NCBI RefSeq assembly: GCF_025698545.1
Contig: NC_068565.1
Coordinates: 3,410,001-3,474,000 of the forward strand
Length of the DNA: 64,000 nt
Direction: 5' to 3'
DNA from: Gossypium raimondii
Taxonomy: Eukaryota > Streptophyta > Magnoliopsida > Malvales > Malvaceae
Part shown: positions 3,205-58,880 of the stretch, in pieces
Layout of the letters: every line of letters starts with the position of its first letter
Position numbering within the stretch: the first letter of the stretch is position 1
Made by a program: the position numbers and the translations under genes
The notes under the pieces: model-generated
What the model was told of the DNA's origin: nothing
The model's input: the letters and a program-made list of their open reading frames with translations, nothing else
The model's database searches: none

Positions 3205-4480
3205 CAAATGCATTCCTTACTTAGCCTGACGTGTAAATCTTCATCTTATGCTATAAAAATGCACCAATATATGAATCCTAACTAAACATCATTTACCAAT
3301 AATGCCATTTGCTGTATATATAATTTAAGTACTATAAAATCGAACTGATCTCCAAAGTGGGTTTAGTGACTTACACTAAATCAGATCGTAATCCAAATTA
3401 ATATTAATTTCCAGCTAATGGAGTGGCTAAATTAAATTTTTAATAAATTCAACCGACATTTCCAGTTTTCAATCAAAGGAAGAACCAGAGCACATGGGTG
3501 TGGTTCCATTCATTGTCACTTAACCTAAAAGAGATGTACTTCAACTTCATATCTTTAGTGGCAACACGTGCACCGAAGTGTTGGTTGAATGATTAAATAA
3601 ACATGGGCCAATGCAATGTTGCTTCATCTGTTTATTTATTGCCTATTTCCTCCTCAACACCCAACATCAACATGTGACAAAAACTCACTTATTTCATGTA
3701 TTATTCAAGGGTCTACCAACTTGGCAATGTATCTTGTCAATTGTGGGTTATGTTGTAGTTTCCCATTTATGTCTTTGGTCACACTCCACAAAAATTAGAT
3801 CTTGTCTATCGAGAAAATCTCTTTCTTGAATTAAATAATATAAAATTGTTTATTCACTTCTCTTATGAATATTAAAGTCATCGGATGTTTCTATTATTAG
3901 ATATGAAACTTCCACCATATTTGATTACTATTTTTATTGTTTAATTGTAAAGATCCAAAGAGTAAAAATATCCCAAGTGGATCAACAACTCCAATATACC
4001 CAAGTTGGCAAAGGTACTTGATGTTCATTTGATGCGGATATTGTCTACTATTTGTTTCATTGTGTCAACTGCAACCAATGCTGGATATTGCCTGCCTGGA
4101 AAGTAGTTTGCTTTAAAAAGTGGGTGGCTTCTCTATTCTTAACATCATTGGAATCCATATACTTAAAATCGTGTGGTGGAAACATAATTAGTCTAACTTT
4201 GATTTGTCACCTTTTCTATAATAATTTTATGTTCTTTCTTTGTCACATATTTGCCTATCACAATCGTTCAATTAAACAATTATTATTTTTATTTGACCAA
4301 TTGATTATCTATTTAATGATTGGATAAGCACATGACCGCACGTTTACATGGGGTCTCCCAAGTAACAAATTACTTGGCCTATAAAAAGGTTAGCGTCCAT
4401 TGATTGAACCATCCCAAGTTTGAAACATTTTCATTTTTGTTGTTCTACACCTCCCCCACCACACCCCCCGGTCCAAAAAA
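3205..4480 (+). repeat. Upstream half of tandem duplication, copy 2
   Basis: This is the second copy of the 70-1580 region. It lies directly upstream of the second acidic-protein gene and ends in its promoter and leader. Short indels and substitutions distinguish it from copy 1, so the duplication is not recent. No gene is seen in it. Confidence 0.75.
4326..4387 (+). promoter_or_regulatory. Core promoter of second acidic-protein gene
   Basis: TATAAAAA at 4380-4387 precedes the ATG at 4507. It is flanked upstream by the same conserved ~50-bp block (CACGTTT, 'atggggtctccca') found at 1435-1485. The leader between them contains a C/A-rich stretch, poly-A and a short GA repeat (4489-4504) right before the start codon. 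Confidence 0.7.
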
Positions 4481-7321: not shown

Positions 7322-10300
7322 TTAGAATTGGTCATTAGTAACAGTCTCCAGTGAAGAACTTGTCTCATCATTTAAGTTCTTACCGCTATGAACTTCCATT
7401 GACGTTTGAAGAGGAAGTTGATAAAATGGCTTAGGAGGCATCTGAAAGAGTTCAACATTAGTTTCAAGCATCTTCAAGACTTTACCCATTGAAGGACGAT
7501 TAGTCGGCAGTAATTGTATAAACCAAAATGCTGTTATTATCATCTTCATCACCATTACTTTTTCATCATCAGAAACATCTACGAACTCTATGTCCTCCTC
7601 CATGATCCAATCGATCATAAATCCAAGTTGGAAAATATATCTGACAACTGCGGTCAGCGAATGCATTCACATTCTTTCTTCTTCCTACCATTTCCATCAG
7701 TAACATTCCAAAGCTATAAACATCGGCTTTGTATGAGATACCTCCAAGATTTTTGTAAATCAATTCAGGAGCAATATATCCTATTGTCCCTCGTGCTGCA
7801 GTGAGAGAGACAAAACTATCATCTACCGAATACAATTTAGCAAGACCAAAATCTGAAACTTTTGGAATAAAATTCTCATCTAGAAGAATGTTGTGTGGCT
7901 TGATATCAAAATGTAAAATTTACATGTCACATCCTTGATGCAAGTAGTCTATTCCTCAAGCCACCCCAAGTACAATATCAAACATTTTTTTCCAACCTAA
8001 AGTATTTGTGTTTTCTTCAGAAAATATGATTTTATCTAAAGATCCATTTGACATGAAGTCATATACCAAGGCTTGCTTTGATCTCTCTACGCAAAATCCA
8101 ATAAGTTTTGTCACATTGGCATGATGAATTCTCCCAATAGAAGAAACTTCATTTATGAAATCTTGGCCTTACCCTTTGACTTATCTAACAGTTTTACAGC
8201 CACATGATGTCCACTACGAAGCTTTCCCTTAAACACCGAACCATAGCCCCCTTCACCTAATTTTTCTTTAAAATTTCTAGTCATTTTTCTGATTTCTTTA
8301 AAAGAATACCTAATCGGCACTAGATTGTTTTGACTTTGAAGGAAGTCTTTGATGATATCATCCATGGATAAGTGTCTCCTTCTCCATTTATACATAACAA
8401 GAGCAAGCAAGCAAAATATCCCAGAGAAAGGCCTGAATAAGATAACTCCAACTTTGTAGAAACACAAGGTAGTCAATTAGTACTTGAAATAAATCAAATA
8501 ACATATAACCTACATTCTTAAAAAAAAGTCTATAATGTGACAGGTATTTGGAAGAGAGATGCACTTGATTAATTTATGGAATTAATTTTTAGATAGCAGT
8601 TGACTTATTTTATACCATCATTGATGCATTGTGTTTCTTGTTCAATACCAAACGAAGATAAAATCAAGATAGATCTTTTTAATGTGCCTTTTGTAGATTT
8701 TTTAACTTTTAAATCAAGAGAAATATCTTGGATTACTGTTTCTATTGCGCATTGTTTTCGTATATATAAAATTTGAGTCCACAAGCATACCTGTTGCTTC
8801 AACAGAGTGATCATAAATTGCTGTAGAAATACAAAGATAAAAGATATGTATATCAGTATAATTAAACAAAATAGTAAAATATAAACATGCAAATAAACTC
8901 TGCAAAGCATACTTTTATACATTTCATTAGCAGGGGGTCGATAGGGCCCATGGAAAATGAAATGTTCAAAGCTCTTTCGGTATCTTCTCAAACCAATTTT
9001 AAGTACTCTTTTCAATCTGCAATGTGAATACACCCAAATAAACAGATTGATGGGTTTGATTCAAAACTTATTAAATGTTTTACTATTAACAATATCAACA
9101 ATTAGCTGCGTACTAATTACATATCAAACATTAGAGTTTAAAACCATCGTTTGTTGCATATAAAACCAAATTCTTTACATAAGCACAAAATTTTTAGTGA
9201 CAACAACCGTACCAAGTTGGAAGGAATTATAACTTTCGAGTACAAAAGCATTGTTGGAGTTTTTGTAAGTGCAGAGGAAGAAAAACAGGACACAAGATAC
9301 AAGGCAGCAAGATACAAGAAAAAAAATTTACTTGCTCACAAATGTGCAGCAAGGGAGTTTATGGCTGATAGCTCATTTTTGCTCATTCATTTAACTAGAA
9401 AAACAATTCATTATAGTCAAATACATCACCAAATACTACCTACTACCACTAAGTAGCCTAGTAACTTGATAAACATTGCTTGTACACGTAAACAAGCCAC
9501 CTAAACTAGTCATTCAACACCTAATGTGTCATCAACTTGTTCATTTTCAACTAGTTTGATTACAATGAAACTAAAGAGAAAACCTTGCTGTTACAGCAAG
9601 CATACGTGCTGCAGCATGTTTACGAGCTGCATGCACTTCAACCAAAAATATCACAGCAGCATGGTTGGCCAATTTTCAACAAGCATGATACTTAGCTAGC
9701 AGTAGAAGAATAAGGCAGAGGCAATTGCTTTAAACCAAAATATCTCAATTTGATGATCTAATTAACCACACTAAACCTAAAGCTATATATAGAACTGAGA
9801 TCTTTGAAGAAACTTACACGTCTTGAAATGAACGTTCATAGCTGCAGCGATTGTAGGTACTCCATGAAACCACAACACCCTTTGATATTTTGTTGTAGAT
9901 ATCCAGAGTAGACATACCTATTATATTATCAACCATAATTGGAACCACGGCTTCCACAGTGCAAAATTGATTGAAATCAGATGGTGGGGTATCTTGATCT
10001 AGAAACTAGACATAGGAACTTAATGGGGAAGAGGAATTGGGTTTGGTGGTACAACGAGAGGCATCAACATACGTAGATAATTTTATTGGTTTTGTGCAAT
10101 TTAAAACTTTCATAAAGCTAGCTCGATTAATATAATCATGTCTAGAAAGATATGTATATACATAAATATCATATGGAGATAGGGATTAAGATTTGTATAA
10201 CTGAGAGGAAGGGAGTTGCAATCATCCATATCCAAGCTCGCATCAACAGCTCGCATTGAATCATTTTTATAAAAGATTTGTTGGACAAAGAATTTTCCTT

Positions 10301-10544
10301 TTCCTAAAACCAAAGTGGTGCGGTTGTTCTTCTCACACTCGAGTTCAAGGTTTTGGTAACCGCAATGAAGAGGTTGGTTTTTTAATCGTAATGGATAACT
10401 GATATTCAAATTTCCACAAAAAACAGAGCCGCAGTCCTGGCATCGATGCCTAGCGAGACAAGCGCCTGGGAATACAAGTAGAAATAAAGCTAAAGTAGCC
10501 ATTAGGTGACCCAACAAAGGGAGTTTTGGTTTTAATTGTGGCAT
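7322..10544 (-). pseudogene. LRK10L-type receptor kinase, unit A (broken)
   Basis: All four exons can be located: ectodomain about 10544-9818, exon 2 9016-8913, a 30-nt exon 3 at 8820-8791, and kinase 8480-7322. The signal peptide, '[15 protein letters not shown]' and 'CDCNSLPLS'-type motifs are present, but the ectodomain has a frameshift near 10110-10130 and a stop beyond it. The kinase has a one-base deletion near 8166 ('ttggccttacc' against 'ttggccgttacc' in the intact copy). It has in-frame stops at 'VA*GIDY' and at the codon before 'ILHFDIK', and a one-base insertion near 7595. It would otherwise be a non-RD kinase (HFDIK). Intron sequence fills 9020-9815. Confidence 0.85.
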
Positions 10545-10589
10545 CCTAAAAACTTGGGCAGGGAAGAAGAACAACGGTTAATGGAGGGT

Positions 10590-11965: not shown

Positions 11966-12715
11966 AATTTTAGAATTGGTCATTAGTAACAATCTCCACC
12001 GATGTACTTGGCTTATCATTTAAGTTCTCAAAGCTATCAACCTCCATTTACGTTTCAAGAGGAAGTTGATAAAATGGCTTAGAGGCATCTCTAGGAGTTC
12101 AACTTCAGTTTCAAGCATTTTCAAGACTTTATTCATTGAAGGACGATCATCTAGCTATAGTTATTTACACCAAAAAGCTGTTATTATCATCTTCCTCATC
12201 ATTACTTTTTCATCATCAGAATCATCTCCCAACCTCATGTCCTTTCCGTGATCCAATCGATTATAAATCCAAGTTGAAAATTATATTTGACTAATGTGGT
12301 CAGCGAATGCATTCACATTCTTTCTTCTTTCTACTATTTCCATCAATAACATTCCAAAGCTATAAACATCAACTTTGTATGAGATGCCTCCAAGATTTTT
12401 GTAAACCATTTCAGGAGCAATATATCCTATTGTTCCTCGTGCTACAGTGAGAGAGACAATACTATCATCTACCGAATACAATTTAACAAGACCAAAATTT
12501 GAAACTTTTGGAATAAAATTCTCATCCTGAAGAATGTTGTGTGGCTTAATATCTAAATGTAAAATTTGCATGTCACATCCTGGATGCAAGTAGTCTTTTC
12601 CTCGAGCCACCCCAAGCACAATATCAAACAATTTTTTCCAACCCAAAGTGTTTGTATTTTCTTTAGAACATAAGATTTTATCTAAAGACCCATCTGACAT
12701 AAAGTCATATACCAA
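11966..12715 (-). pseudogene. LRK10L kinase exon fragment, unit A2
   Basis: This is the C-terminal two thirds of a kinase exon: '[11 protein letters not shown]', '[10 protein letters not shown]', a degraded 'SNFGL' in place of DFG, and 'GTIGYIAPE'. The frame is open over 12281-12715 and then shifts towards the C-terminus. The N-lobe is missing. At 12715 homology stops abruptly inside 'LVYDF..' and unrelated retroelement-like sequence begins. It is non-functional. Confidence 0.8.
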
Positions 12716-13385
12716 ATCTAGAAATATTAAACCAAGAATTAAGTACACATAATTGAGAACAATATTCAAGTATTTATTATGTAAAATAAAAATCAAACGA
12801 CATAATTCGTCATAGGATTCGTCTCCCTAAGTGTTTAGAAACTAGTTCATGCATGCAAAAAACAACAACCAAGAGACAGTATAACCATAAGAAAAAAAAA
12901 ACTCATAATAATCTCCAAAGAATTCAAAAAGGAATCTTCAATCTTGATGGAAATCTGTTTCAGAATCGACTTCAATGGTGTTTTTCAAGTTATTTTCTTG
13001 AGTATTCTATGATAACTCACTCTCATCTTCTTATTTTTGTCATATATAGGGTCACAGAATACTCGAAAAACCCTAAAAAACCACATTTTTCTACTGTTTG
13101 GAATACAATTCATGAAATCAACACGGTCTACCACATGCTCGTGTGGCAACCCGTGTGGCATACACGGTTGTGTGTATAGGCCGTGTAGAATGGTCCAGCC
13201 CATGCGACCCCTGTAGCTTGCTCTGATTTTCTGATTTTTGCTCATTTTTAGTTCATTTTGTTCCAAAATGCTCTCTTAAGTATAAAAAAAAATGAATTTA
13301 AAGGATTAAGAGCATAAAATTCACTATTAATATAAAATAATCACCCAAAAAGCATTAAGAATAATACTAAAATATGTTACTTTTA
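12716..13385. mobile_element. Retroelement-like insertion replacing a kinase N-lobe
   Basis: This sequence has no kinase homology. It contains the 'cgtgtggcaacccgtgtggcatacacgg' style of repeated 'acacgg/ccgtgt' words that also occurs in the LTR fragment at 31107-32090. I read it as an LTR fragment. I could not find clean TG...CA ends or a target duplication. It sits between two kinase fragments, where the N-terminus of one and the 3' flank of the other should be. Confidence 0.4.
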
Positions 13386-19453: not shown

Positions 19454-22400
19454 TTACATCGATGTATCAAGAGGAAGATGATGAAATGGTTTAGGGGGCA
19501 TTTGAAGGAGTTCAACATCCCCTTCAAGCATCTTTAGCACTTCGCTCATTGAAGGACGATCAATAGGCAATAATTTTATGCACCAAAAGGCTGTTATTAT
19601 CATCTTTTTCACCAGCAGTTTTTCATCATCAGAAACATCTCCTAGCTCTATGTCCTCTCCTTGATCCAGTCGATCATAAGTCCATGATGGAAAATAGATT
19701 TGACTAGTGCGGTCAACAAATGCATTCAAATTCTTTCTCCTTCCTACCATTTCCATCAATAACATTCCAAAGCTATAAACATCGGCCTTGTATGATATGC
19801 CTCCAAGATTTTTGTAAACCAATTCAGGAGCAATGTATCCTATTGTGCCTCGTGCAGCAGTGAGAGAGACAATGCTATCCTTCACTGAATACAACTTAGC
19901 AAGACCGAAATCTGAAACTTTTGGATTAAAATTCTCATCTAAAAGAATATTGTGTGGCTTGATATCAAAATGCAGAATTTGCATGTCACACCCTTGATGT
20001 AAGTAGTCAACTCCTCGAGCCACCCCAAGCACAATATCAAACATTTTTTTCCATCCTAATGTCTTCTTATTTTCTTCTGAAAATATGATTTTATCTAAAG
20101 ATCCATTTGACATGAACTCATATACAAGAGCTTGCTTTGACCCCTTCACGCAAAATCCAATAAGTTTTGCCACATTAACATGATGAATTCTCCCAATAGA
20201 AGCAACTTCATTTATGAAATCTTGGCCGTTACCCTTTGACTTGCATAACAATTTAATTGCCACATAATGTCCACTGCGAAGCTTTCCTTTAAAGACAGAG
20301 CCATAACCCCCTTCACCTAATTTATATTTAAAATTTTTTGTCATTTTTTTAATTTCTTTGAAAGAATATCTAATTGGTGCTAGACTGTGACTTTGAAGAA
20401 ACTCTTCAATCTTATTATCCATGGATAAATGTCTTCTATTCCATTTGTAAATAACAAGCCCAAACAAACAAGGTATCCCAAGCAAAGCCCTGAGTATGAA
20501 GAACCCCGCTTCAAAAACAAGAAAGTATTGTACTACTTTAGTACTTTGTGAGATCAAAAACTAATTATCTACATTCTCAAAATGTCTATACAAGCGACAG
20601 TCGCTTGCTCTCTTAAAACAAACACATACTTATTTGATATACCAAAACAAGATAAAATTAAGATAGATTTCAAATATTTAAAAAGTGGTTTGTAGTTTTT
20701 ATAACTTAAAATCAAATTATAAATATAAAGAATCTTTCATTTTTTTTTCCTCAAATTAAACGTGAATAGTTTTTCTTTCTATCTCTCAATGTTTTGGATA
20801 TATTAAAAATTGAGACCATAAGTATACCTGTTACTCCAAGATAAAAATTATCCTGTGCTGTGGAAACACAAAAACAAAAAGATACATCAATATTACCAGA
20901 AAGTAAAAAGTTCAAAGATCAGTAAAAAACAAATAGAACCTGCAAATCACACCAGCCGACCCAAAAAATAAAAAAAATCATACCATAATAGTTAGAATAA
21001 TAAAAAATGCCGCCGTAGAAAATTGATCGTGAAATGCTCCCAAAATAGGCTCTCAATTTATATTGCACATCGAACAATCTGCAGTATTCAGTACATCTAA
21101 ATAAGCAAAGCTATTGTAGATGGGACCAATGAGCTAAACATTAGACTAGATTTATATAACACTCTATTAACAATTCTTCTAAATGTATTTTATATTAAAA
21201 TTACAATATATATATAAAGTTCCAAATTTTACTATATATTGGCACAAGAATTATGTGTGAAAAAAAAAGTAAAAGGGATCAAATTATCTTATTATAAAAG
21301 GAGTAGGGATTTTGTTGTGTGTATCCAAAAAATCTTGGCAGAGTGTCTTTCTATGATTATACAAAATTATTAACAATAACAACAATTGGCTGAGTATTAA
21401 TTACATATCAAATATTTGATTATACATAAAAATTAGTAACGATTATTTATAATGTGTTTCATATAAAAATCAATAAAAGTTCTATTAATATTGACTATAT
21501 TTCCCCGTTTATTGCACTGTAAATTACTAAAATACTCTACAAAGGGAAAAAAAGTCTAGTAATTATTGTTACATGAAAATGAAAAAGAAGGAGTTGTAGC
21601 CGTAATTGTAGTAATTAATCTAAAATGCTATCGGATTTATTCTTTCTATGATTGGGAAGTCCACAGAAATAAATTTTGAAATTGTACATAGACTTTTATT
21701 AATCTAAAATTGTACATAAATTTAAAAATAACATAAAACAAATAAGTAGGTCTACATAAAGCAAAAGTAAGACACTAAATTAGAAATGTTATTAAGGTTT
21801 TTTCTTTCTTTCTTTTTTCCCATTTGATTGTTCGGAATTCATAAATTTTAGTTACAAAACATGATACTTAATTAGCAAGATAAAATTTATTTGTGAACAA
21901 AAAAGTAAGTCGTACAAAAAGCAAAGGCAGATGTTCTAACTAAAAATTTCAGTCTAATGACGTAATTAATAATGCATACTTAGAATGTAAACTAAAATCA
22001 CTGAAGAAACTTACACTTCTTTAAACGAAACTTTGTTATTGTAGTCGCAGCCCTGGTAGGTGCATTCATTCCAAGTAACCCAAATACCTTCTAGTAGTTT
22101 TTTGTAGATATCCAATGTAAACATGCCTGTTATATTACGAACCATAATTGGAACCTCCGCTTCCACAGTGCAAGCTTGATTGATATCAGATGGGTGGATA
22201 TTTCCATTTAAAAAATAAAAATGAAAAGTTGGAAGGGAAGAAGGAGGATTGGATTTGGTGGTACAACGAGAAGCCTCAATATAAAGTGATGATTTTATAG
22301 GTTTCGTGCAATTCACAACATGAATAATGCTAGACTCTAACCATCTACCATAATAATCATTAACAAAAAAAGGAAACGGTTTATATTCATAATAATTATT

Positions 22401-22757
22401 TATATAATCATAATAATAATCATATACAGAACTAAGAGGAAGGGAATTACAATCATCTGTGTCCATGCTTGCATCGACCACTCGCATTGTATAATCTTCG
22501 TAAATGATTTGTTGGACAGAGAATTTCCCTCCTCTTCCAACTAAAGTGGTGCGATTATTGTTTTCACACTCTAATTCAAGGTTAATGTAACCACACTGGG
22601 GGGGTTGGCCTTTTATTCGGAAGGGAAAACTGATATTCAAATTCCCACAGAAAGTAGAGCCACAATCTTGGTTAATAAGATGCCTAGCAAAGCAAACACC
22701 AGGGAGTAGAATTACAAATAAAGCAAACAATGGTAGCTTTTCTTTTAATTTGGGCAT
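19454..22757 (-). CDS. LRK10L-type receptor-like kinase, the only intact unit
   Basis: Exons read by eye are 22757-22015, 21078-20984, 20857-20828 and 20508-19454. All junctions are GT/AG and in phase, giving 640 residues. Residues 1-24 are a signal peptide. The extracellular GUB_WAK_bind region follows, with C32GSTFC and 'CDYNNK' near its end. A membrane helix lies at about 290-310. The Ser/Thr kinase has its P-loop GEGGYG at 354-359, Lys375, alpha-C Glu390, HFDIK with Asp471 and Lys473, Asn476, DFG 489-491 and APE 516-518. Phe in place of Arg before the catalytic Asp makes it non-RD, common among immune receptors. The family (LRK10L / Lr10-like) acts at the plasma membrane; the ligand is unknown. 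An alternative Met at 22790 is less likely because it precedes the signal peptide by 11 residues. The small exons are the least certain part. Confidence 0.85.
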
Positions 22758-22859
22758 GTTAAAATATTGGGTAGGATTGAAGAACAACAATGGGGGTTAA
22801 CAATTAAGTTTCTAACTTCAATGTGAGAAGAAGCATTATTGAGGACAGAAGACCCCAAT

Positions 22860-25644: not shown

Positions 25645-28600
25645 TTATGCAATATTTGAACTTGTTATAGTAACAGTATCCAATGATGTACTTGGCTCAT
25701 CATTAGAGTTCTCACAGTTATGAACCTCCATTGTTGTTACAAGAAGAAGTTGATGGAATGGCTTAGGAGGCATCTCAAGGAGTTCAACATTAGATTCAAG
25801 CATCTTCAAACTTTACTCATTGCAGGATCAGAAGGTAGTAATTGTATACATCAAAAGGCTGTTATTATCATCTTCTTCACCATTACTTTTTCATCGTCAA
25901 AAACATCTCCCAACTCCAAGTCCTCTCCTTGATCCAATTTGTCATAAATCCAAGATGGAAAATATATTTGACTAGTGTGGTCAGCAAGTCCATTCACGTT
26001 CTTTCTCCTTCCTACCATTTCCATTAGTAACATTCCAAAACTATAGACATCAGCTTTGTATGAGATGCCTCCAAGATTTTTGTAAACCAATTCAGGAGCA
26101 ATATATCCTATCGTTCCTCGTGATGCAGTGAGAGAGATAATACTATCATCTACTGAATACAATTTAGCAAGACCAAAATTTGAAAATTTTGGATTAAAAT
26201 TCTCATCAAGAAGAATATTGTGTAGTTTGATATCAAAATGTAGAATTTGCATGTTACATCCTTGATGCAAGTAGTGAATTCCTTGAGCCACCCCAAGCAG
26301 AACATCAAACATTTTTTTCCAACCCAAAGTGTTCTTATTTTCTTCTGTAAATATGATTTTATCTAAAGATCCATTAGACATATGAAGCCATATACTAGGG
26401 CTTGCTTTGATCCATCCACGCAAAATCCAATAAGTTTTGTCACATTAGCATGATGAATTTTCCCAATAGAAGCAACTTCATTTGTGAAATCTTGCCATTA
26501 CCCTTTGATTTGCCCAACGATTTTACTGCCACATGATGCTTACTATGAAGTTTTCCTTTAAATACAGAACCGTAACCCCCTTGACCTAATTTATTTTTAA
26601 AATTTTTAGTCATTTTTCTATTTTTTTTTAAAAAATACCTTATTAACACCAGATTATTTTAGCTTTAAAGAAATTCTTTAATCGTATCATCCATAGATAA
26701 ATGTCTTCTTCTCCATTTGTACGTAACAAGAGCAAGCAAACAAATTATCCCAGAAAACGACCACAAAAAGTTAACTCCTCCTTGAAAGGATTACAATGCA
26801 ACACGTCAATACTTGTGAAATTAATCAAATAATATATATCTTACATTCTCAAAAAAGTATATAATGTGATAGCTTTATGCTCTTTTATAATTAACTACTA
26901 CTTGAAAGAGGGGCATATTTCACTACTTTATGGAATTAATTTAGAAATAACAGTTAGTTTGTTAGATAGCATCATTGATGCCTTGCGTTTACTCTTCTAT
27001 ACCAAATGAAAAACTTTGAAAGGCCATTGAGAACCCAAGAAAAATAATTTCGAATTATGTGTTATGTTTATATACTAGTAGGTGCACCTCAACAAATTCA
27101 AACTTAGAAATTCACACACAAAGAAGTAAATCAATAAATCATGCAAATTGGATACCAATTAATTTAACCTCACCATGGTCCATCAAGGATACTCAACTTT
27201 TATATTCATGTCAAATATACTTGAAGAAGGACAAAGTACAAATATAATAACCTTCAATCTTCATTAATGAAACAAAGTCTATAATCACCAAAAGATGCAA
27301 GACAACCCAAAAAAAAAGACAATGGATCGATTCAAGAGCTTAACTTTGTTGAATGTTTTAGCAATATGAATATTCACCAAACTTACAACCTGTGAAAGTT
27401 CTAAACAAGACCATTATGAACACAAACTTAACCAAAAACCCAACATCTTTCTTTACTTGACAAAAAAATATTCTTTCGTATAAGTAGAAGAAGATTGTTT
27501 TCGGCATTCAAACTCCTTAAAGAATGCTATAGATTTATCAGTTTTGCAGTGAAATTAAATATGAACTTGTATAGTACGATAGACTCCTTATTCTTTTTCC
27601 CCAAGAATATTGCTAATATCTTTTCTTAACCAGTGCTAGAATTTGTATCTGAAAAATGCAAATCTGCAAATCCAAAATTAACAATACCTGTTATTGCCAA
27701 ACAGAGAATATAAGTTCCTGTAAAAAAACCACGAATAAAAACGAAATATCATTATTTCAAGAGAGCAGCGAAATAGTAAAATCAAAGCACTTCTAAATTC
27801 TAATGAATTTTGGGAAGCATACTTCTTGGCATAGAATCGTTGATATCGTAGTAGACATGGGGGCCGTGGAAAAGGAAATATACAAAGCTGTCCATATAGT
27901 TTCTGAAGGCAAATTTCAAGTTTGACAATCTGGATTATATATTCAACAAATCAAAGTAAAATTAATAAAGGGGTGTAAAGGAAAATTCCAAATTTGTGTA
28001 AAAAAATCAATGGAAGGTAATCTAAAACATTATATTCTATTTTGTGGTATATGCTCAAAAAATTACAACAATTCTTTACATATTTTTGTTTGCAAAAAGT
28101 ATGCAACATGTATTACAGTATAAGAGTTTTAGTTGACAAAATTATTTAATATAATGAAAGGTGAGACAAAATTTATTCAAATTATTTAATCCAAAATAAA
28201 AATATACATTATAGCATTAAAAGACTGCGAAAAAAATAAACTCATCCACAACGGTGGAATATTTACGTACTGCCAACTAAATTGCGAAAAAAAGTAACAT
28301 AAAATAAAATAAAAAATAAAGGTAGGTCATACAAAAAGAAAGGGAAAAAGATAGTGGTTCATAATCATAAGTATCATAATAATAATATACAGAACTAAGA
28401 GGAAGAGAGTTGCAATCATCCGTGTCCAAGCTCGCATCAACCTTTCGTATTATATAATTTTCGTAAAAGATTTGTTGGACAGAGAATTTCCCTCCTCTCT
28501 CAACCAAAGTGGTGCGATTATGGTTCTCACACTAAAATTCAAAGCCATAATGACCACACTGGGAAGGTTAGTTTTTTAATCGGAATGAAAAACTGATATT

Positions 28601-38002: not shown

Positions 38003-39216
38003 AGGGGTGAGCATTCGATCGAATCGAATCAAATCGAATCGAAAATTTTCGAGTTAATCGAGTTTTCGAATCTCACTTTATCATCCTAACTTTATTTGAA
38101 GTTTTCTCGAATCGAGTCGAGTGAGATGGAATTCGAATCGAATCGAATCGAATATATTTGTTCGAGTTAAATTTTAAAAAATAATTTTAGGTCCTTGTAA
38201 CCATTGTCACCCATCGTAATAAAATTTGTCCACCTTAATCAAATTTTTATTAACTTTCATCACTTCATAATTTATTTATTAATTTTTATATCTTGGTTAG
38301 CTTCTTTGCTTGCTTAGTTGTTTCAATTATCTTGATTCTTGTCACTATGTATTTTAGAATTAAAAATATATTAAATGTAAAAATATGATTTTTTAATAAA
38401 AGTTATTTTAAAATAAAATGTGAAATTGATACCAATATAAAATTTTAACACGAATATTTTATGGCATAATTAATAATTCAATTTTAATATAAATATTCAA
38501 TATGACTAAACAATTCAATAATATAAATAATATAAAATGTGAAATTTAATTTAATAATATAAATAGTAGATATAAATAAAATTATTACTATTTATGTTTA
38601 GTGATTTTTATTTGGATATTTTGATTTTTATTTGGGAGTAAAGGGTGAGAAGTAAAAGTTTAGGGAAAAATAAAAGTTTTGGGGAATAAAAGTTTGAGGA
38701 AAGTAAATAGGGGAGTAAAATTTTGGAGGAAAATATTAAAAAAATTGGAGGGGGAGGGTTTGGGATAGATGGGAGGTGAGATGGGAAGAGAATAAAAGTT
38801 TTAGGGGAAAAGTGGGAGGGAGTAAAAATTTTGGGGGAAAATAAAAGGTTTTAAGGGTTTTGGGAGTAAAATTTTGAGAAAAGTAAATGGGAGAGTAAAA
38901 TTTTGGTGGGAAATGGATTTTGGGTAGATTGGGGGTTGGGAGGAGGAGTAAAAGTTTTGGGGAGAAAGTGGGAAGGAGTAAAAGTTTTGAGGAAAAGTAA
39001 AAGGTTTGGGAGTTTGGGGTAAAATGTAAAATATTATAGTTTGATATTGAATTATTCGAGTTATTCAATTGAAAACTCAACTCGATTCGAACTCGAATTG
39101 AAAAAAAATTGAGTTGATTGAATAACTCGATTAACTCGAATAACTCGATTCGTTTAACTCGAAATTCGAATTTTTTTTCAATTTTTTCGAGTCGAATCGA
39201 GTTTTGCTCACCCCTA
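38003..39216. mobile_element. hAT-type element, 1214 bp, with perfect 8-bp TSD
   Basis: The ends are TAGGGGTGAGCA and TGCTCACCCCTA. The 8-bp duplication ACTACCAT is perfect at 37995-38002 and 39217-39224. Subterminal regions are packed with 'tcgaatcgaatcgaa' words at both ends in inverted relation. The middle (38636-39010) is a G-run-rich imperfect repeat of 'agtaaaagttttgggg'. No transposase is seen. The 187-residue minus-strand frame at 38736-39299 runs through the repeat and out into the host, and I reject it. It is inserted in exon 1 of unit D. Confidence 0.9.
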
Positions 39217-40094
39217 ACTACCATAATAAAAAGGAAAAGGAAAAGGAAAATGATATAAAACAGTAGAAAAAGAAAACAGTTTATAATAACCATAATCATA
39301 AGAAGAATATGTGGAACTAAGGGTCCGTTTGATTGCCAGTAAAATGTTTTCCGTAAAATGATTTCTGGAAAATATTTTACTTTTCTGTAAAATGATTTAC
39401 TGGAAAATATTTTTGGGTGTTTGATTGAATCTGTATAAAATATTTTCTGCTGTTTGGCAGATTTCCTGAAAATATTTTCCGGAAAAGTTATTTTTATATA
39501 TATTAATATATTTTATATTTTTATATTTTAAATTATTTTTACATATATTGAAATGATTTATTTATATAAATAAATCAAATTAAATATATAATAATACTCA
39601 ATTATTAAGCTTCTATATTAACCGTCATAAATTGAAAACAACCAAAGTCAAATAAATTATTTGTAATTGTGTTAAAAAAAAAAAAACAAGGGTTGAATAA
39701 TTATAAATTTAGCTTCCAAACCACAATTAAAAAATACTAATCTATGCATTTATTTAAAACATATAAGATGTATTTACCTACCAATATGAAACTTTGGATC
39801 TTTTAAATGATTCAAGAAGACCAAAATGTTAAACAAAAGACAAGACATATACCAAGTCCTTAGTAAATTGTTATAGACTGTATTTGGCGCAACTGCTTAA
39901 GTGCATCTGCTATCAAATTGCTAGCCACTTACAACTAAAAAAATGACAATGTCTGCTGCCAGGAAGCTTGCTGGGTTCAAATCAAAACACACAAAAATCA
40001 AAACTTAGGCTAAATAATCTAATCATAAAACACTACTCCGACTGTTAGCGTTGCATTAACTGATTCACCATCTGCTATCAAATTGCTAGCCACT

Positions 40095-40344
40095 TGCACC
40101 TTTCTTTAATAAGACTTTGATTACTTCTAGATGGGACCCTTGAACAGCATAGTGAAGTGGAGTGAATCCCTTGCGATTAGTGGCTCTCACTGAAACTCCT
40201 GATGAAAGTAGAGTTCAGACAACCTCTAGATGTCCTTTCTGCGCCGCAAAATGAATCGCACACATGCCATCCATGGCAGCAGCACCAACATCAGCCTTTT
40301 GTTGCAAAGATAACTCACTACCTGTGCTTGCCTGGCCCATGCTG
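40095..40344 (-). pseudogene. Captured ankyrin-repeat gene fragment
   Basis: On the minus strand, after an acceptor-like 'ttTAG', the frame from Met 40340 reads 'MGQAST..', then two ankyrin repeats: 'DGMCAIHFAAQKGHLEVV' with 'TLLSSGV', and 'RKGFTPLHYAVQGSHLEVI' with 'KVLLKKGAS'. The ankyrin consensus (TPLHxAxxxGHxEVxxxLL) is clear. One in-frame TGA at 40217-40215 falls where Arg is expected. Both edges end abruptly. A 25-bp piece ('atctgctatcaaattgctag...') occurs both at the fragment's downstream edge (about 40071) and at about 39909. It is a captured copy, not a gene in place. Confidence 0.8.
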
Positions 40345-40911
40345 CTAAATGTAGTCTATATCACAAGGTTACCGACGTCAAAGAAACAAATTGAAAACTA
40401 GAAGGCTATCATGCATGGTGAAAACAGCAGGATCCAGTCACTAACAATGTTACTGAGAATAAATATATACAATACAAATCATTCAAAAAGTGCAGAATGC
40501 ACATCGTTTGAGCATGGTACAATTCTGAACCGAGGACCTCTTTCTTAGTAGAGAGCTAATTAGGCTATGCATCATTCACAACAATTGCAACATCTCAAGC
40601 AACAAGTATATTTTGTTCTAATTTTAACAGTTCATACAGTTACACCGGACCAAACTGAATACAAAATATAGCTAAAATTAACCACAAATTAACCACATCT
40701 TTAGTATAACAATAATCAAGTAAGATCTATTAAAACCTTTGTTATTAATGAAAATTTTACTATATTTCAATTCTAAAGGATTTGCATAAATGTTTATAAG
40801 AAATGTGCTAGGGACAATCAAATGCAGTAATGTCTAGAGCATTTTATCCCATCCCAGATATGTTATTTAATATTTAATAACCGGGAAGAGGATAAAGTAT
40901 AGCATACTTAC

Positions 40912-41189
40912 GCAGTTAAAAACCGTAGGAGCTCCAGGTCCTGTAATATAGATTAAAAATAGTAGGAAAAAAAGTAGTAAATTGTTATATTTACAAAATA
41001 ACCAATATGAAACCTAGAAGAAACTATACACAGCTAAAGTTGACATTGGATACCAATTTCAAGATCATGCCATGGGTGAGCAGCGACGGACCTCCTGGTC
41101 ATTGACGAAAGGATCCTTTCATTCAAAGGAGGATGTGAAGCGCAGTGAGAGTCAGAGGACTTGACTGTAGTCTCAATTGGTGGAGTCAT
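40912..41189 (-). pseudogene. Captured 5' exons of a soluble inorganic pyrophosphatase gene
   Basis: There are two exons with good splice sites. Exon 41189-41054 (136 nt) encodes '[16 protein letters not shown]...' then '[20 protein letters not shown]' and 'DLEIG'. Exon 40940-40912 (29 nt) encodes 'PGAPTVFNC' and ends at GTAAGT. The 29-nt exon restores frame. This is the start of plant cytosolic PPase. The catalytic core, which begins just after 'FNCVVEI', is not present. The intron between them is kept, so genomic DNA rather than mRNA was captured. The reading frame is still open. Expression from its own leader at 41200-42230 is possible but unproven. Confidence 0.85.
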
Positions 41190-42719
41190 CACTATGAGTA
41201 ACAAACAGTGTTAGCAATAATAAACAATTCTTGAATAAGATTTAAACAGCAATAATAAACAATGATTGTAGAAATTTTATTGATTTGTTTCATTTCTTCT
41301 TTGATTTTTCTCTCGTGTTATCGATTATATAACTTAACCAATCAAATGCTTGTAGAACCATGCAGCGAAAACAAAATTGTCACCCCATATTGGGTAAAAG
41401 CCGTTTCGATTTCAGAAAACTGCCTAAGTTTTGCATTTGACATGGAGCTTTTCTGCTTTGAAAACTGAAGGTTTTCTTAGCACTTTAGCAGCAGAGTATC
41501 GTCAAATTTAACAATAACAAAACAATTCAACGTAAAACTCTCAAAATCCCAAAAGAAAACTGCCAAAGAAAAAGGAAAGAAAAGAAGAATTCTACTAATT
41601 GATTCTTTTACTCTGTTTGGAAAAATAATCGGAAAATAATTTTTGTTTTAAAGATGATTTCGTAGCAGAGTCTCTCGCGCGGTGATTCCACAGCTGATCG
41701 TTTACTTTTAGGAAAAACGTTTAGAATCAATTAAATTTATAGCTTACAAACATAGATCTACAAACTAGAATTGTAACCGTCGAAAAATAGAATTGCAACG
41801 TACTAGCAGCGGTTTCCAGTTCTGAACCAAAATGAAGCTTTCAAGAAGCTTGAAGAAACACACAGATCTCAAAAACAAAGAGAGAGCAAAAATAATAAAA
41901 GGATAATAGGCACTAAAATAGAGAAATAACACCTTATAGGAGGCTTTAAATAGAGAAGTAGCAAAGGAAGCTATGCCGGTTACCATTTAAAGCCAAACCC
42001 GAAGAGCAGAAAAGTGAAGGTTACCTGATCAGGAGAGGAGGGAACCGAGGAAATGAAAAACCATAGCGATAATCGATAGTGAGGAGAGTGGGGGATTACT
42101 GGAAAATCGGTTGTCGATGTTTTCTCAGGGAAGTTTTCTCACGGAAATTTGAAGAAATGAAGGAAGAGAGCTTACTGGATGAAGGGAGAAGAATGCCCGA
42201 GAGCTTTAGGACAATTTCCTAAAAATTGTAAGGTATTTTCCCGTGTTTTGGAAATATTTTCCGCCAATCAAACATTAGAAAAGTTAGAAAATAATTTCTG
42301 AAAAATCAAATCTCACAATCAAATGGACCCTAAGAGAAAGGGAGTTGCAACCATTCATATCCAAACTTGCATCGACCACTTGTAGAATTTTCATAAAAAA
42401 TTTGTTGGACAGAGAATTTCCCATTCTCTCCCAACTAAAATGGCGCGATTGTTGTTGTCCACACTCAAATTCCAGGTCATGCCAACCACACTGGAGAGGT
42501 TGGTTTTTTAATCGGAAAGGAAAACTGACATTCAAATTCCCACAGAAAATAGAGCCACAATCTTGGTTAATAAGATGCCTAGCAAAGCAAGCACAGGGAA
42601 TAGAATTACAAATGAAGCAAAAGCGGCCATTAGGTGACCAAACAATGGTAGTTTTGCTTTTAATTTTGGAATGCTAAAATATTGGGTAGGATTGAAGAAC
42701 ATCAATGGGGGCAAGGAAA

Positions 42720-45229: not shown

Positions 45230-47949
45230 TTAAATTCCCCTAGTCCAGCTCCTCCTTTTCTTCATCTCCCTAGGAACCAAGAATGACACAACTTCTTCTT
45301 CCTGAAAAATGATAACAACTCCTTTAGTTTGATACATGCTAATTCAGTTTAGTTAATAATATCCTCTTTATCAGCCTTTCCTTCCACAAGTTTAGTAATA
45401 TTATATTGATTTCAATCGCTTAGCAATAATAAAATTCTTTAAACCTCAAAACAAAATTTATATATAAAGACTTACCTTAGAAAGTGCACAATCTATATGA
45501 GCAACAAATATTCCTGGGCATTCTTCACAATAGTAAACATGATGGTTTGGGTGTCTTTTTTCTTCACATGCATCACAGTAATGCTCATCTGAATCATCTT
45601 CGATATACGAATCTTTAAGAGTTAAAGGATGGATGTGGCATTTGGATTTGATAATTTGAGGTAAGGATAGACATTCTAGGTGGAAATTGATGAAACACTC
45701 AAGACAACGATAGAAAGATTGCCCGCTGCAAATTTCACCACAGTGACTACAAAATAGTCCAGCATAGATATCAATGAAGTCACGGTACATGGCAAAGAAT
45801 CGATCAAAGTCCGTCCCAAAATAATAAAGATGGTGCATGTGAGAGTCAAGTTTTAGAGGGCGTGTTAGGGAAATTGCACATGCAATATGGTAGTTGACGC
45901 CACAATCTTTACAACCATAGTTATAACTCTTATGATAGCCAGATGGTAACAGCTTTAGTGAACATGCATGGCACCCTCCATATCTCGTGTAGCTTAGAGT
46001 CAAAGTGTGTTGGGAATGAAAAGGTACTTGCATTTCTTGTGGTAACCTAAGGCAAGATTCATGAAGAACCCAACCACAGCTCATGCAATGGTATGTTGGA
46101 CCAAAGATTTGCAGTCGACAAAGATTGCATTGTCTTTTAACTAGAGGGTCAGTAAAATTGCAAAACAGTAGCTTGTGCTTGTGGGTGAAATGGAATAGCT
46201 CAGTTTCCCTCTCCGACTCTTTCAATGTTGTGCGCCCACTTTCAGAGGGTGCTCGAGTTGCGCATTTCAGATCGAGCTTGAAATCACAGTGCTCGCAAAG
46301 ATAAAAGAAGCCGAAGTACAAATCTTGACACTTATCACATATATTTTGGTCCAGCGACATAGATGTAGCGTAGAGGTTGAGATGATGTTGAGGATGAAGA
46401 GGGTGTTGTATCACATCGGGTAATTTAGCACAGTTTTCATGTAGGATATATAGGCATCCTTTACAGATGTAGCCTGGACCACTAAGTTCTAAACGACAAG
46501 CTCCGCAAACCCTTTCTCCCAAGTTTTCAGTTACCTCGCAAAATTTCAATGGATGTTTATGGAAGACTGGTCGGACCTGTACTTGTAAATAAACAACCAA
46601 CAAACCTGTTAATTCATCATGTTAAATATATGTAAAGAAAATATATATAATTCCTTTGTTTCCTACTAACCAGAATCGTTTCAGTCTGCTCCATTTCCTT
46701 CAGCTCCGAAGCTTTAGCATCCATGGATATGGGAGGGGAGGATGATGAGTCCTGTTTTGTTGATGTTTCCTCCTAATGTACAGCAAACATTCCATTATTA
46801 GAAAACGAGGAATAAAGTAATATATAAAAGTAAAGCAAACTAAGGAAAGGGTGCGACCTGATTGAGCACACATTCAATATGAGCAATATATGTGCATTTT
46901 TGGCAATAATAAACTTCATGTGTTGGATCTCGTTCTTTCTCACAAATATCACAGTAATACTCTCCAATCTCATCTTCTCTAATTGGTTGATTAAGGAGGA
47001 GTGGATGTCTATGATATCTGTGTTTAGCTAAAGGTGGAACTGGAACACATTTAAGATGGAGATTGAGATCACACTGCACACAACGATAAAAGGTGTCTAA
47101 ACACAGCTCATGGCAGGAGCTGCATTGGAAATGATATTTGAGAATTGGATCCCTGAAAGTGGGACCAACATAAGTGAGACCGTGGTTGTGGCCCTCATGT
47201 TTAAGGGTAGGTAATAGTTTTGCACACCCAAAATCAAGGTTGAAATTGCAAATTTGGCAACCATAGGCGGCGGTGGAGAAGTCTTTACTCATACTAATCC
47301 ATTGTGTACAAGCATTGCAAGTTGCGTCAACGAAATCCAAGCGAAGAGGGTGTGATGGATGGAAAGGATGGTTCAATGTTTTGGGTATCTTATCACTGCA
47401 AAATTCATGAAGGAAGAAGCCACAACTTTTACAACCGTAGAAAATGCCCGCCAGTGGCTTGTCACACCAACGACAATTATAATCATGTTCTCCCTCATTG
47501 CTATACTTGTAGAGGACCAGCGGGTGGATGTGGCAGTAATGCTGCATTGCCTGTTTCCTATCTGCATTGGATCTCTGCCTCTTCTTCCTAGCTACATGAT
47601 CATCACTGCTTGCAAAAGCGCAAACTAAATCGAGCTCGAAGGCGCACCGACAACACGTGTAATTGGTGCCCGAAGAAATCTTCAAACATAGATCACAGGT
47701 AAATGGTGCGAAAGGACCAGACCAATCTAACATAAGATGGTGGTGTGAGTGGAGAGGATGTGTAATCTCTCGAGGCAGATATTGTATAGCTTTGGCGCAC
47801 AATTCATGCAACCAGAGTTCGCACCGTACGCATGCATAGGCTGCACCACAGATTTTCTCCGTGCATTTCTCACACCATTTATCATCTGTCTCATCATCGA
47901 GACAATGATAGCCCATTGAATGCTCATGACTGGCAAGTTTGATCTCCAT
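45230..47949 (-). CDS. DC1 (Cys/His-rich C1) domain protein, 12 modules
   Basis: Exons read by eye are 47949-46858, 46772-46671, 46576-45476 and 45301-45230. All are phase 0, giving 788 residues. Exons 1 and 3 each encode six DC1-like modules of the form H..H-L...C..C....Y.C..C.F.LH..C, typical of the plant divergent C1 family, which binds zinc. The linker exon 2 is 'EETSTKQDSSSS'-rich. Exon 4 is short and basic at its end ('KKRRSWTRG'). The last donor is AAG/GTAAGT. The first, CAG/GTCGCA, is weak, so two adjacent genes (47949-46840 and about 46725-45230) remain possible. Family members are linked to stress or defence signalling in some reports; this gene's partner is unknown. The start is the first Met, 'MEIKLASHEHSMGYHCL'. 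Confidence 0.8.
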
Positions 47950-47959
47950 ATCTCAAACA

Positions 47960-57394: not shown

Positions 57395-58880
57395 GTTAGA
57401 TCAAGACAAGTATGATCATTTTCTGTGGAAACACAAAAACAAAAAGATACATCAATATTACAGAGACTAAAAAGTTCAAAGATCAGTAAAAAAACAAATA
57501 AAACCTGCAAATCACACCATCTCATCAGCCGACCGCAAAAGAAAAAAAAAATCATACCATGATAGTAAGAAATTGCTCGTGAAATGCACCCAAAATAGGA
57601 CGTCGTACACTCTATTAACAATTCTTCTTAATGTATTTTATATTAAAATTACAACATATATATATAAAGTTACTACTTTTACTATATATTGGCACAGCAA
57701 TATTTATGTGTGATAAAAAAGTAAAAGGGATCAAATTATCTTATTATAAAAAATCTTGGCAGACTGTCTTTTGATGATTATACAAAATTATTAATAATAT
57801 CAACAATTGGCTGAGTATTAAGCATATCAAATATTTGATCAGATATAAAAAAAATAGTAACGATTATTTATAATGTGTTTCATGTAAAATCAATCAAAAT
57901 TTATTAATATTTGACGTCTATTACACTATAAATTACTAAAATACTCTACAAAGGGAAAAAAAAGAAATCTAGTAATTATTGTTAAATGAAAATGGAAAAA
58001 AAAGTTGTAGCCGTAATTGTAGTAATTAAATATCTAAAATGCTATATAAAATTGATATATAAATTTTAATTTAGTGCAAGTATATACATGAAACTTTGAT
58101 TGTGGTTCAACTATATACATGAAACTATAGTTTTATCCAATCACACACATGTAAAAATATTTACATCAAACTTTTTTGTATTGCAATAAATAAATATAAA
58201 ATGTTGCTATATCAAAATTATGTTAATAATTTGTAAAAATTGAATCAAATCAAAATTTCATATATAAAGTTGCACAAAATCAAAGTTTATGGATACAATT
58301 ATACACTGAATCAAAGTTCATACATAATTTTGAGACTTATTTCATTTTAGGAACATAAATGTTATGTTTAATTAGCTAATAAAATTTAATTACGAAAAAG
58401 TAACATAAAACAAATGAGTAGGTCATACATAAAGCAAAGAAACATACTGAATTAGAAATACTACTAAGTTTTTTCTTTCTTTCTTTTTCACATTTGATTG
58501 TTAGGTCTTCGTAAATTTTAAGATATTTATACACAGAACTAAGAGGAAAGGAGTTGCAATCATCCATATCCAAACTTGCATCGACTGCACATATTGTATA
58601 ATTTTCGTAAAAGATTTGTTGGACGAAAAGTTTTTATCCTCTTCTCCCAACCAAAGTGGTGCGATTGTTGTTCTCACACTCAAAATTCTAAGTCATAATA
58701 ACCACACTGGGGAGGTTGGTTTTTTTATGTGGAAAACTGATATTCAAATTCCCCCAGAAAGTAGAGCCGCAGTCTTGGTTAATAAGATGCCTAGCAAAAC
58801 AAACAGCAGGAAATAGAATTACAAATAAAGCAAAAGCGGGCAACAATGTCAGTTTTGCTTTTAATTTTGGCCTTTGGGTA
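57395..58880 (-). pseudogene. LRK10L unit G, truncated by the retroelement nest
   Basis: The ectodomain remnant is about 58880-58520 ('TLVLGE'-like core, 'MDMDDCNSFPLSSVY') with frameshifts. Its family Met is deleted ('ttttggcctttggg') and the C-terminal half is gone. Exon 2 is at about 57602-57556 ('YFGCISRAISYYHG'). Exon 3 is about 57424-57395, immediately followed by the outer LTR end at 57389. No kinase exon is present on the other side of the nest. Intron sequence 57605-58035 is close to 21130-21640 of the intact gene. Confidence 0.75.
58045..58340. mobile_element. Palindromic MITE, copy 1
   Basis: The long inverted arms carry 'atatacatgaaactttgat' on the left and 'atcaaagt.tatggatacaatta' on the right, with the same words as the element at 60985-61335. 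It is AT-rich and non-coding. The ends are ragged and no target duplication was resolved. It lies in the intron side of unit G. Confidence 0.55.

Follow-up and report, generated by a model that had tools for sequence, protein, structure and literature searches.

The DNA considered here is a 64,000-nucleotide stretch of the Gossypium raimondii genome (contig NC_068565.1, positions 3,410,001 to 3,474,000 of the forward strand; 'the window', whose coordinates are used for all features below), and its subject is a transposable element carrying fragments of two unrelated genes, one encoding a soluble inorganic pyrophosphatase and the other an ankyrin-repeat protein. We consider it very probable that this is a non-autonomous, Pack-type element of the PIF/Harbinger superfamily that was built by stepwise capture, subsequently had part of its cargo exchanged, and was then inserted where it now stands. 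It offers a well-resolved case of multi-step capture by a plant PIF/Harbinger element, in which the donors are intact, empty sites are present in the window itself and transposase-bearing relatives can be identified, and in which a shared junction scar lets the capture steps be partly ordered. An earlier, sequence-only reading had described matching ends with TAA on both sides and, between them, two gene fragments in one orientation; both descriptions hold (Table 1), and both fragments read from the right end towards the left.

Ends, insertion site and transposase-bearing relatives

The terminal inverted repeats (TIRs) of the element are the sole matches in the window with fewer than three mismatches, and the two further TIR-like sites, both at three mismatches, are what chance would provide. 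Across the whole genome the 26-nt left end occurs 391 times with at most two mismatches, while its reversed control does not occur at all. Many genomic copies thus have these ends in common, contrary to the outcome that would have refuted the sequence-only reading. Flanking triplets are identical in 17 of the 18 elements in which both ends were located (10 TAA, 5 TTA, 1 TCA and 1 TTT).

Three paralogous stretches within the window cross the insertion site as GAACTAAGAGGAA, with a single TAA and without the element, and it is these empty sites that identify the element as an insertion. The stretch at 28241-28528 matches both flanks well; that at 22311-22565 begins to match some 28 bases to the left of the joint, and at 58421-58675 only about 6 bases match on the left. 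All three belong to a related array at C1 3.26-3.58 Mb that the flanks fused at one TAA match (among the best 40 of 1482 candidates). To the right, 42287-42673 (minus strand) is a partial GUB_WAK_bind sequence (1.9e-8), truncated at the insertion point, and the right flank has 53% identity to the window gene at 22014-22796 as far as that point; the left flank has no further similarity to this gene. We read these alignments as insertion, with duplication of TAA, into wall-associated-kinase-like sequence in a tandem array, and the target so split was perhaps already a pseudogene. The second of the empty sites, 22311-22565, itself falls inside the wall-associated receptor kinase exon 22014-22796.

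The family to which the ends belong includes members with a transposase. Two of these are structurally complete, with both TIRs and a DDE_Tnp_4 match: L053 (5488 bp, flanked by TAA on both sides) and L054 (5593 bp, flanked by TTA on both sides). DDE_Tnp_4 is also found in the coding halves of L052 and L051, in the latter in two adjacent frames (reflecting an intron or a break) and together with Myb_DNA-bind_3, the Myb/SANT scan having been made on L051 only; the right TIR was not found in the L051 and L052 loci. The coding half of L051 has 34 near full-length genomic copies, itself included, among the best 40 of 1344 candidates in a DNA search. The first 407 bp of our element are 84% identical to L051 and 83% to L052, the right end of L053 is 86% identical to that of the sister copy on C8 over about 177 bp, and at least four of the left-end places listed (100 of the 391, compared by eye) sit about 1.8 kb from a DDE_Tnp_4 match. 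Because its ends, TIRs and TWA duplications are shared with DDE_Tnp_4-bearing relatives, we assign the element to PIF/Harbinger on sequence grounds; the PIF/Harbinger-like identity proposed earlier is in this way established through transposase-bearing relatives, and goes beyond the TAA alone. Among the matches listed there is no DDE_Tnp_4 in the element, some of whose open reading frames (ORFs) were scanned, and its interior is explained by two donors plus the family ends. It is non-autonomous, a usual state among PIF/Harbinger elements. The open pyrophosphatase frame might be taken to favour an ordinary host gene with TIR-like ends arising by chance, yet this is so improbable that we set it aside, being refuted by sister copies with duplications of their own, by the transposase-bearing relatives and by the empty sites.

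Two intact donors and a shared scar

The captured pyrophosphatase exons find their best match among solved relatives in a soluble inorganic pyrophosphatase (E 4.1e-17). As had been claimed, there are two of them, and their frame is open, with the intron between them retained; a retrocopy is rejected on account of the retained introns. The donor is an intact gene at C4:13113687-13115124, with seven exons and an open frame of 203 amino acids; a pyrophosphatase gene at C9:42.21 Mb was rejected as donor, being a paralogue at about 70% identity. The cargo stops just short of the intron-2 acceptor, and the intron in its 5' untranslated region (5'UTR) has been shortened by about 276 bp between 41767 and 41773. 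A genome search with this part, in which 40 of 40 candidates were scored, returned the present copy, further copies on C8 and C2, the donor, a 143-bp piece on C5, pyrophosphatase paralogues, 14 places with the 5'UTR end alone and places matching the transposon right end alone. The captured piece is, then, multicopy, and the shorter C5 piece lies in a 2.4-kb element, flanked by TTA on both sides, that also holds 184 bp of the ankyrin part. Kimura two-parameter distances to the donor over the captured columns are 0.023 for this copy, 0.029 for C8 and 0.024 for C2. A deletion of roughly 70 bases has removed the start codon from the C8 copy, and in the C2 copy AT replaces GT after exon 2. The 75 bp at 41773-41847, which recur alone in 14 other places, were considered as a nested foreign miniature inverted-repeat transposable element; this was rejected by alignment to the donor, in which they span the boundary between the 5'UTR exon and the intron that follows it.

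The ankyrin donor is likewise intact, a gene of two exons at C4:45962144-45963832 (locus L025) with an open frame of 238 amino acids. The two donors lie about 33 Mb apart on C4, so that the two segments do not derive from one contiguous host gene and the earlier claim of separate sources is borne out. Of the two ankyrin pieces, the second matches PF00023 at 2.4e-9 and the first at 0.006, under the cut-off. In order, the ankyrin sequence in the element comprises 32 nt of the beginning of intron 1, the terminal part of the same intron, the 5' half of exon 2 and the 3' UTR with its flank. A genome search with this part, 19 of 19 candidates being scored, found the donor as two separate matches and 16 carriers; two more loci, on C6 and C5, hold it in part and stop short of the scar.

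That scar is the most informative feature of the cargo. In all 16 carriers exon 2 is broken off at GGTGCAAGT; next come about 23 nt taken from donor position 4520 of L025 onwards, and then the ankyrin 3' UTR, entered at about 4391. At the two jumps AGT (3 nt) and AGATG (5 nt) are shared. One scar common to every carrier shows that the ankyrin tail was captured once. In two loci, L011 and L056, the retained ankyrin sequence reaches back to about the start codon and includes all or most of intron 1, and the arrangement in the window therefore looks derived. L056 (C6:28107700-28110739) is an element flanked by TTA on both sides, with ankyrin sequence from about the start codon through most of intron 1; it also holds a piece matching L051 5742-5880, within the last ORF of that transposase-bearing element.

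Where the donor has CGA, 10 of the 16 carriers have a TGA stop, among them all three with pyrophosphatase, and one has TAA; CGA survives in L011, L017 and L024 lack 2 bases at this place, and L022 and L023 have undergone rearrangement. The single stop attributed to the ankyrin part is real (TGA at 40217-40215) and falls between the two ankyrin pieces, but a 1-base deletion had been missed, which is unique to this copy among the carriers covering that place.

Exchange of upstream cargo and formation of the element

Upstream of the common ankyrin tail the carriers differ. Pyrophosphatase sequence occupies this position in three (the present copy, C8 and C2), while five (L018 and L020-L023) have pieces of a kinase gene, a PORR gene or both, in one orientation. 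The kinase fragment is carried by L018, L020 and L021 and is missing from L022 and L023, whose ankyrin exon is rearranged; the start of the PORR gene is found in L020, L022 and L023 and partly in L021, and a piece matching it lies about 2.6 kb from L018. In L011 the upstream part is the ankyrin gene's own 5' part, and in the remaining seven (L013-L017, L019 and L024) it is unnamed; Pfam gave no match in 2 of the 11 listed ORFs of L013, nor in 2 of the 6 of L026. Outside the carriers, the kinase/PORR cargo is matched at C4:18109198-18109720 (96%) and C11:15557-17753 (93-96%), and has a relative with exon spacing at C1:52.10 Mb (81-86%). A different combination occurs in L041, in L049 (C13:43300582-43304150) and, of 13 other places with the 5'UTR end, in the 6 compared: here, under family ends, the end of the pyrophosphatase 5'UTR with its splice donor is joined to a PPR fragment, and in L041 the frame across the two is open for 296 codons. 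No pyrophosphatase match was found in L038, L039, L040 and L042, which share the right end of our element. Taken together, these comparisons indicate that upstream sequence was swapped after the ankyrin capture, and differently in each lineage. All five named cargo genes, and the transposase, are oriented from right end to left end, a regularity that is suggestive, although with only five genes.

We propose the following sequence of events. The left and right ends come from a transposon family in which the larger members carry genes for a DDE transposase and for a Myb/SANT protein, and, given the shared ends, those members presumably moved the element in trans. An ancestor would have taken up part of the ankyrin gene when DNA synthesis switched template within the donor locus, and such switching, during repair or replication, would have produced both the joints and the scar. 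What lay upstream of the ankyrin part, towards the right end, was later exchanged in separate lineages, and in this one the pyrophosphatase promoter, leader and first two exons replaced it, before the finished element inserted with TAA duplication into wall-associated-kinase-like sequence. It is the scar, with 23 nt copied from the donor's own flank and its short microhomologies, that points to template switching; at the pyrophosphatase-ankyrin joint of the C8 copy, both donors share TAATTT.

A different route of Pack-TYPE capture has been proposed for elements including Pack-PIF (PMC8903248): two insertions close to each other fuse, and their outer TIRs are then mobilised jointly. The left and right ends of our element do resemble different sub-families, as fusion would allow, and the ankyrin donor locus holds two end-like sites, one of them in intron 1, although both have exactly three mismatches, which is about the chance rate; these sites leave some room for fusion. 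Against this, no family end with three or fewer mismatches is present in the 8-kb pyrophosphatase donor locus (L012) or between the cargo pieces, and fusion does not predict a scar in which donor flank is copied out of order with microhomologies of 3 and 5 nt. We regard fusion as unlikely, and the out-of-order copy fits better with gap filling or with fork stalling, template switching and transposition (FoSTeST), both of which have been proposed for animal Pack-TIRs (PMC8277862). Extension to plant Pack-MULEs is there called worth exploring. The scar bears on whether Pack elements in plants arise through template switching or through the fusion of insertions lying side by side.

Several observations sit less comfortably with stepwise capture followed by exchange. 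In L011 the flanking triplets are TTA and ATA, one base apart. The captured ankyrin 3' flank is only 87% identical to the donor, as against 97% for the exon and intron part. The ankyrin segment gives a tree in which the kinase/PORR carriers form a group (95/89); elsewhere it is star-like, with 3 of its 14 inner branches supported and the pyrophosphatase carriers ungrouped, and because it is mostly unresolved the order of exchanges is unproved by phylogeny. Trans-mobilisation and template switching, finally, are inferred and not observed.

Divergence ahead of the coding part extends to the transposase-bearing copies, of which five bear on the matter. L053 (606-3056, reverse complement) and L054 (499-3023) have no shared stretch of 70 bp or more across 2.5 kb, while they are alike at the right end and again from just before the transposase ATG onward; the border of the divergent region resembles a splice acceptor (TGTAG/ATGG). 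This could mean that the family as a whole exchanges 5' modules, the right leader and left downstream module staying in place while the middle is repeatedly replaced, through template switching, by the promoter, leader and first exons of host genes. Expression of cargo and transposase could then depend on such captured promoters and leader exons. We think so general a process doubtful. Against clean exchange stand L051 and L053, which share the last ~575 bp of the pre-transposase region, and L052 and L054, which share several pieces of it; the L053 region recurs partly in a few of the best 40 of 80 places, and a clear gene is not evident in it by eye, no family scan having been made there.

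Coding potential and comparison with known systems

The sequence-only reading had suggested a chimeric transcript joining pyrophosphatase residues 1-55 to ankyrin repeats. Splice signals and frame do permit a product, read from 41189-41054, 40940-40912 and 40355-40215 and ending at TGA, of 101 amino acids: 55 of pyrophosphatase, 18 out of the ankyrin frame and, because of the 1-base deletion, 28 within it. The proposal survives in that a short chimeric transcript may arise; it is qualified in that the product stops about 28 residues into the ankyrin frame and two sisters are incapable of making it. A stronger version, in which the captured promoter drives a spliced mRNA whose 101-residue protein is kept by selection, could draw on what this copy retains, namely the TATA-like box, the ends of the 5'UTR intron, the ATG, the splice sites of exons 1 and 2 and the ankyrin acceptor, and also on a deletion that restores the ankyrin frame after 18 residues. 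However, the stop, distributed among the carriers as described above, suggests that the ankyrin frame was probably dead before or with this capture; the C8 copy lacks the start codon and C2 the exon-2 GT; relative to the donor, two residue-altering changes and one silent change in the 165 exon bases of this copy are too few to speak of constraint; and residues 1-55 omit most of the pyrophosphatase. A selected protein, which we judge very improbable, is hard to reconcile with a stop found in so many carriers and with sisters that are broken, and the element is most likely a passive passenger, with no sign of selection keeping a product.

Action through RNA, by which transcripts of the element, or read-through into it, would yield small RNAs that match both intact donors and silence or tune them, is a speculative alternative that we think improbable. 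About 1.3 kb of the element is ~98% identical to the pyrophosphatase gene and 0.56 kb is 97% identical to the ankyrin gene, and more copies of the segments exist elsewhere, but the captured pieces lie in one orientation, so there is no built-in hairpin. A splice-donor-like CAG/GTAACC in the right end, about 15 nt before the pyrophosphatase joint, occurs also in L009, L038, L039 and L040; it is altered in L010 and L042, and the right ends of L026, L041, L053 and L054 showed no such motif.

Pack-MULEs, in which pieces of host genes are captured and joined in series with introns kept, belong to the Mutator superfamily and have 9-bp duplications and long TIRs. Our element differs in its 3-bp TAA, its 15-bp TIR and its DDE_Tnp_4 relatives, and a Pack-MULE was rejected on the duplication and the PIF-type relatives; a Helitron was rejected on the general features of that class. 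It resembles Pack-TYPE elements generally in carrying host gene fragments with identifiable intact donors and in having more than one genomic copy. Closest are the Pack-PIF elements of maize and rice (Gisby and Catoni 2022, PMC8903248), which share non-autonomous PIF/Harbinger ends, a mostly TAA or TTA duplication and captured gene fragments, in some of them from two or more loci. The earlier statement that capture by such elements is much less described is consequently true only in part. In maize cluster 18 a second capture was added to a first, the two measuring 163 and 58 bp (PMC8903248); here 1.3 kb with proximal promoter, leader and two exons is joined by ~0.9 kb of a second gene, and the donors are intact. 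The words promoter, microhomology, template and Gossypium are absent from the main text of that paper, and a literature search for Harbinger gene capture in Gossypium raimondii found nothing. Animal Pack-TIRs are similar in breakpoint microhomology, template switching and multicopy spread after capture (PMC8277862), and differ in being animal systems; the word Harbinger is absent from the main text of that report. The Pack-PIF class is already known, and what is unusual here is the completeness of the evidence and the larger, promoter-containing cargo; possibly new are the swapping of upstream modules and the way in which transposase-bearing copies diverge in front of the transposase exon.

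Table 1. Features of the element, in window coordinates
Feature	Position	Strand	Remarks
Left target-site duplication	39318..39320		TAA
Whole element	39321..42330		3010 bp; defined by TIRs, TAA duplication and empty paralogous sites
Left TIR	39321..39335	+	15 bp, GGGTCCGTTTGATTG
Left end, transposon-derived	39321..39730		~410 bp; 83-84% identity to transposase-bearing L051 and L052
Ankyrin 3' UTR and downstream flank	39731..40084	-	donor L025 4379-4714, 87%
Junction scar	40069..40091	-	23 nt of 3' flank of the ankyrin donor, placed after exon 2 and before the 3' UTR
5' half of ankyrin exon 2	40092..40355	-	1-base deletion; TGA at 40217-40215
Two pieces of ankyrin intron 1	40356..40680	-	from donor position 3435 on, and from 2868-2899
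Pyrophosphatase 5'UTR intron (3' part), exons 1 and 2 with intron 1 between them, and intron 2 without its acceptor	40683..41767	-	97.6% to donor
Pyrophosphatase exon 2	40912..40940	-	splice donor GTAAGT retained
Pyrophosphatase exon 1	41054..41191	-	ATG at 41189-41187
Start of pyrophosphatase 5'UTR intron, 5'UTR exon, proximal promoter	41773..42013	-	TATA-like CTATTTAAAG at 41953
Right end, transposon-derived	42014..42330	-	splice-donor-like CAG/GTAACC at ~42024; common to L038, L039, L040 and L042
Right TIR	42316..42330	-	15 bp, CAATCAAATGGACCC; 1 mismatch to left TIR
Right target-site duplication	42331..42333		TAA

The surroundings of the element include a cluster of wall-associated receptor kinase exons with GUB_WAK_bind and kinase domains, on the minus strand at 10113-10577, 12284-12826, 19457-20560, 22014-22796 and 25854-26444. 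Two adjacent ORFs on the same strand, 45461-46621 and 46843-47952, encode many C1 domains, and to the left of the element, at 38649-39010, there are G-rich, degenerate short repeats resembling GGAGTAAAAGTTTTGGGG.

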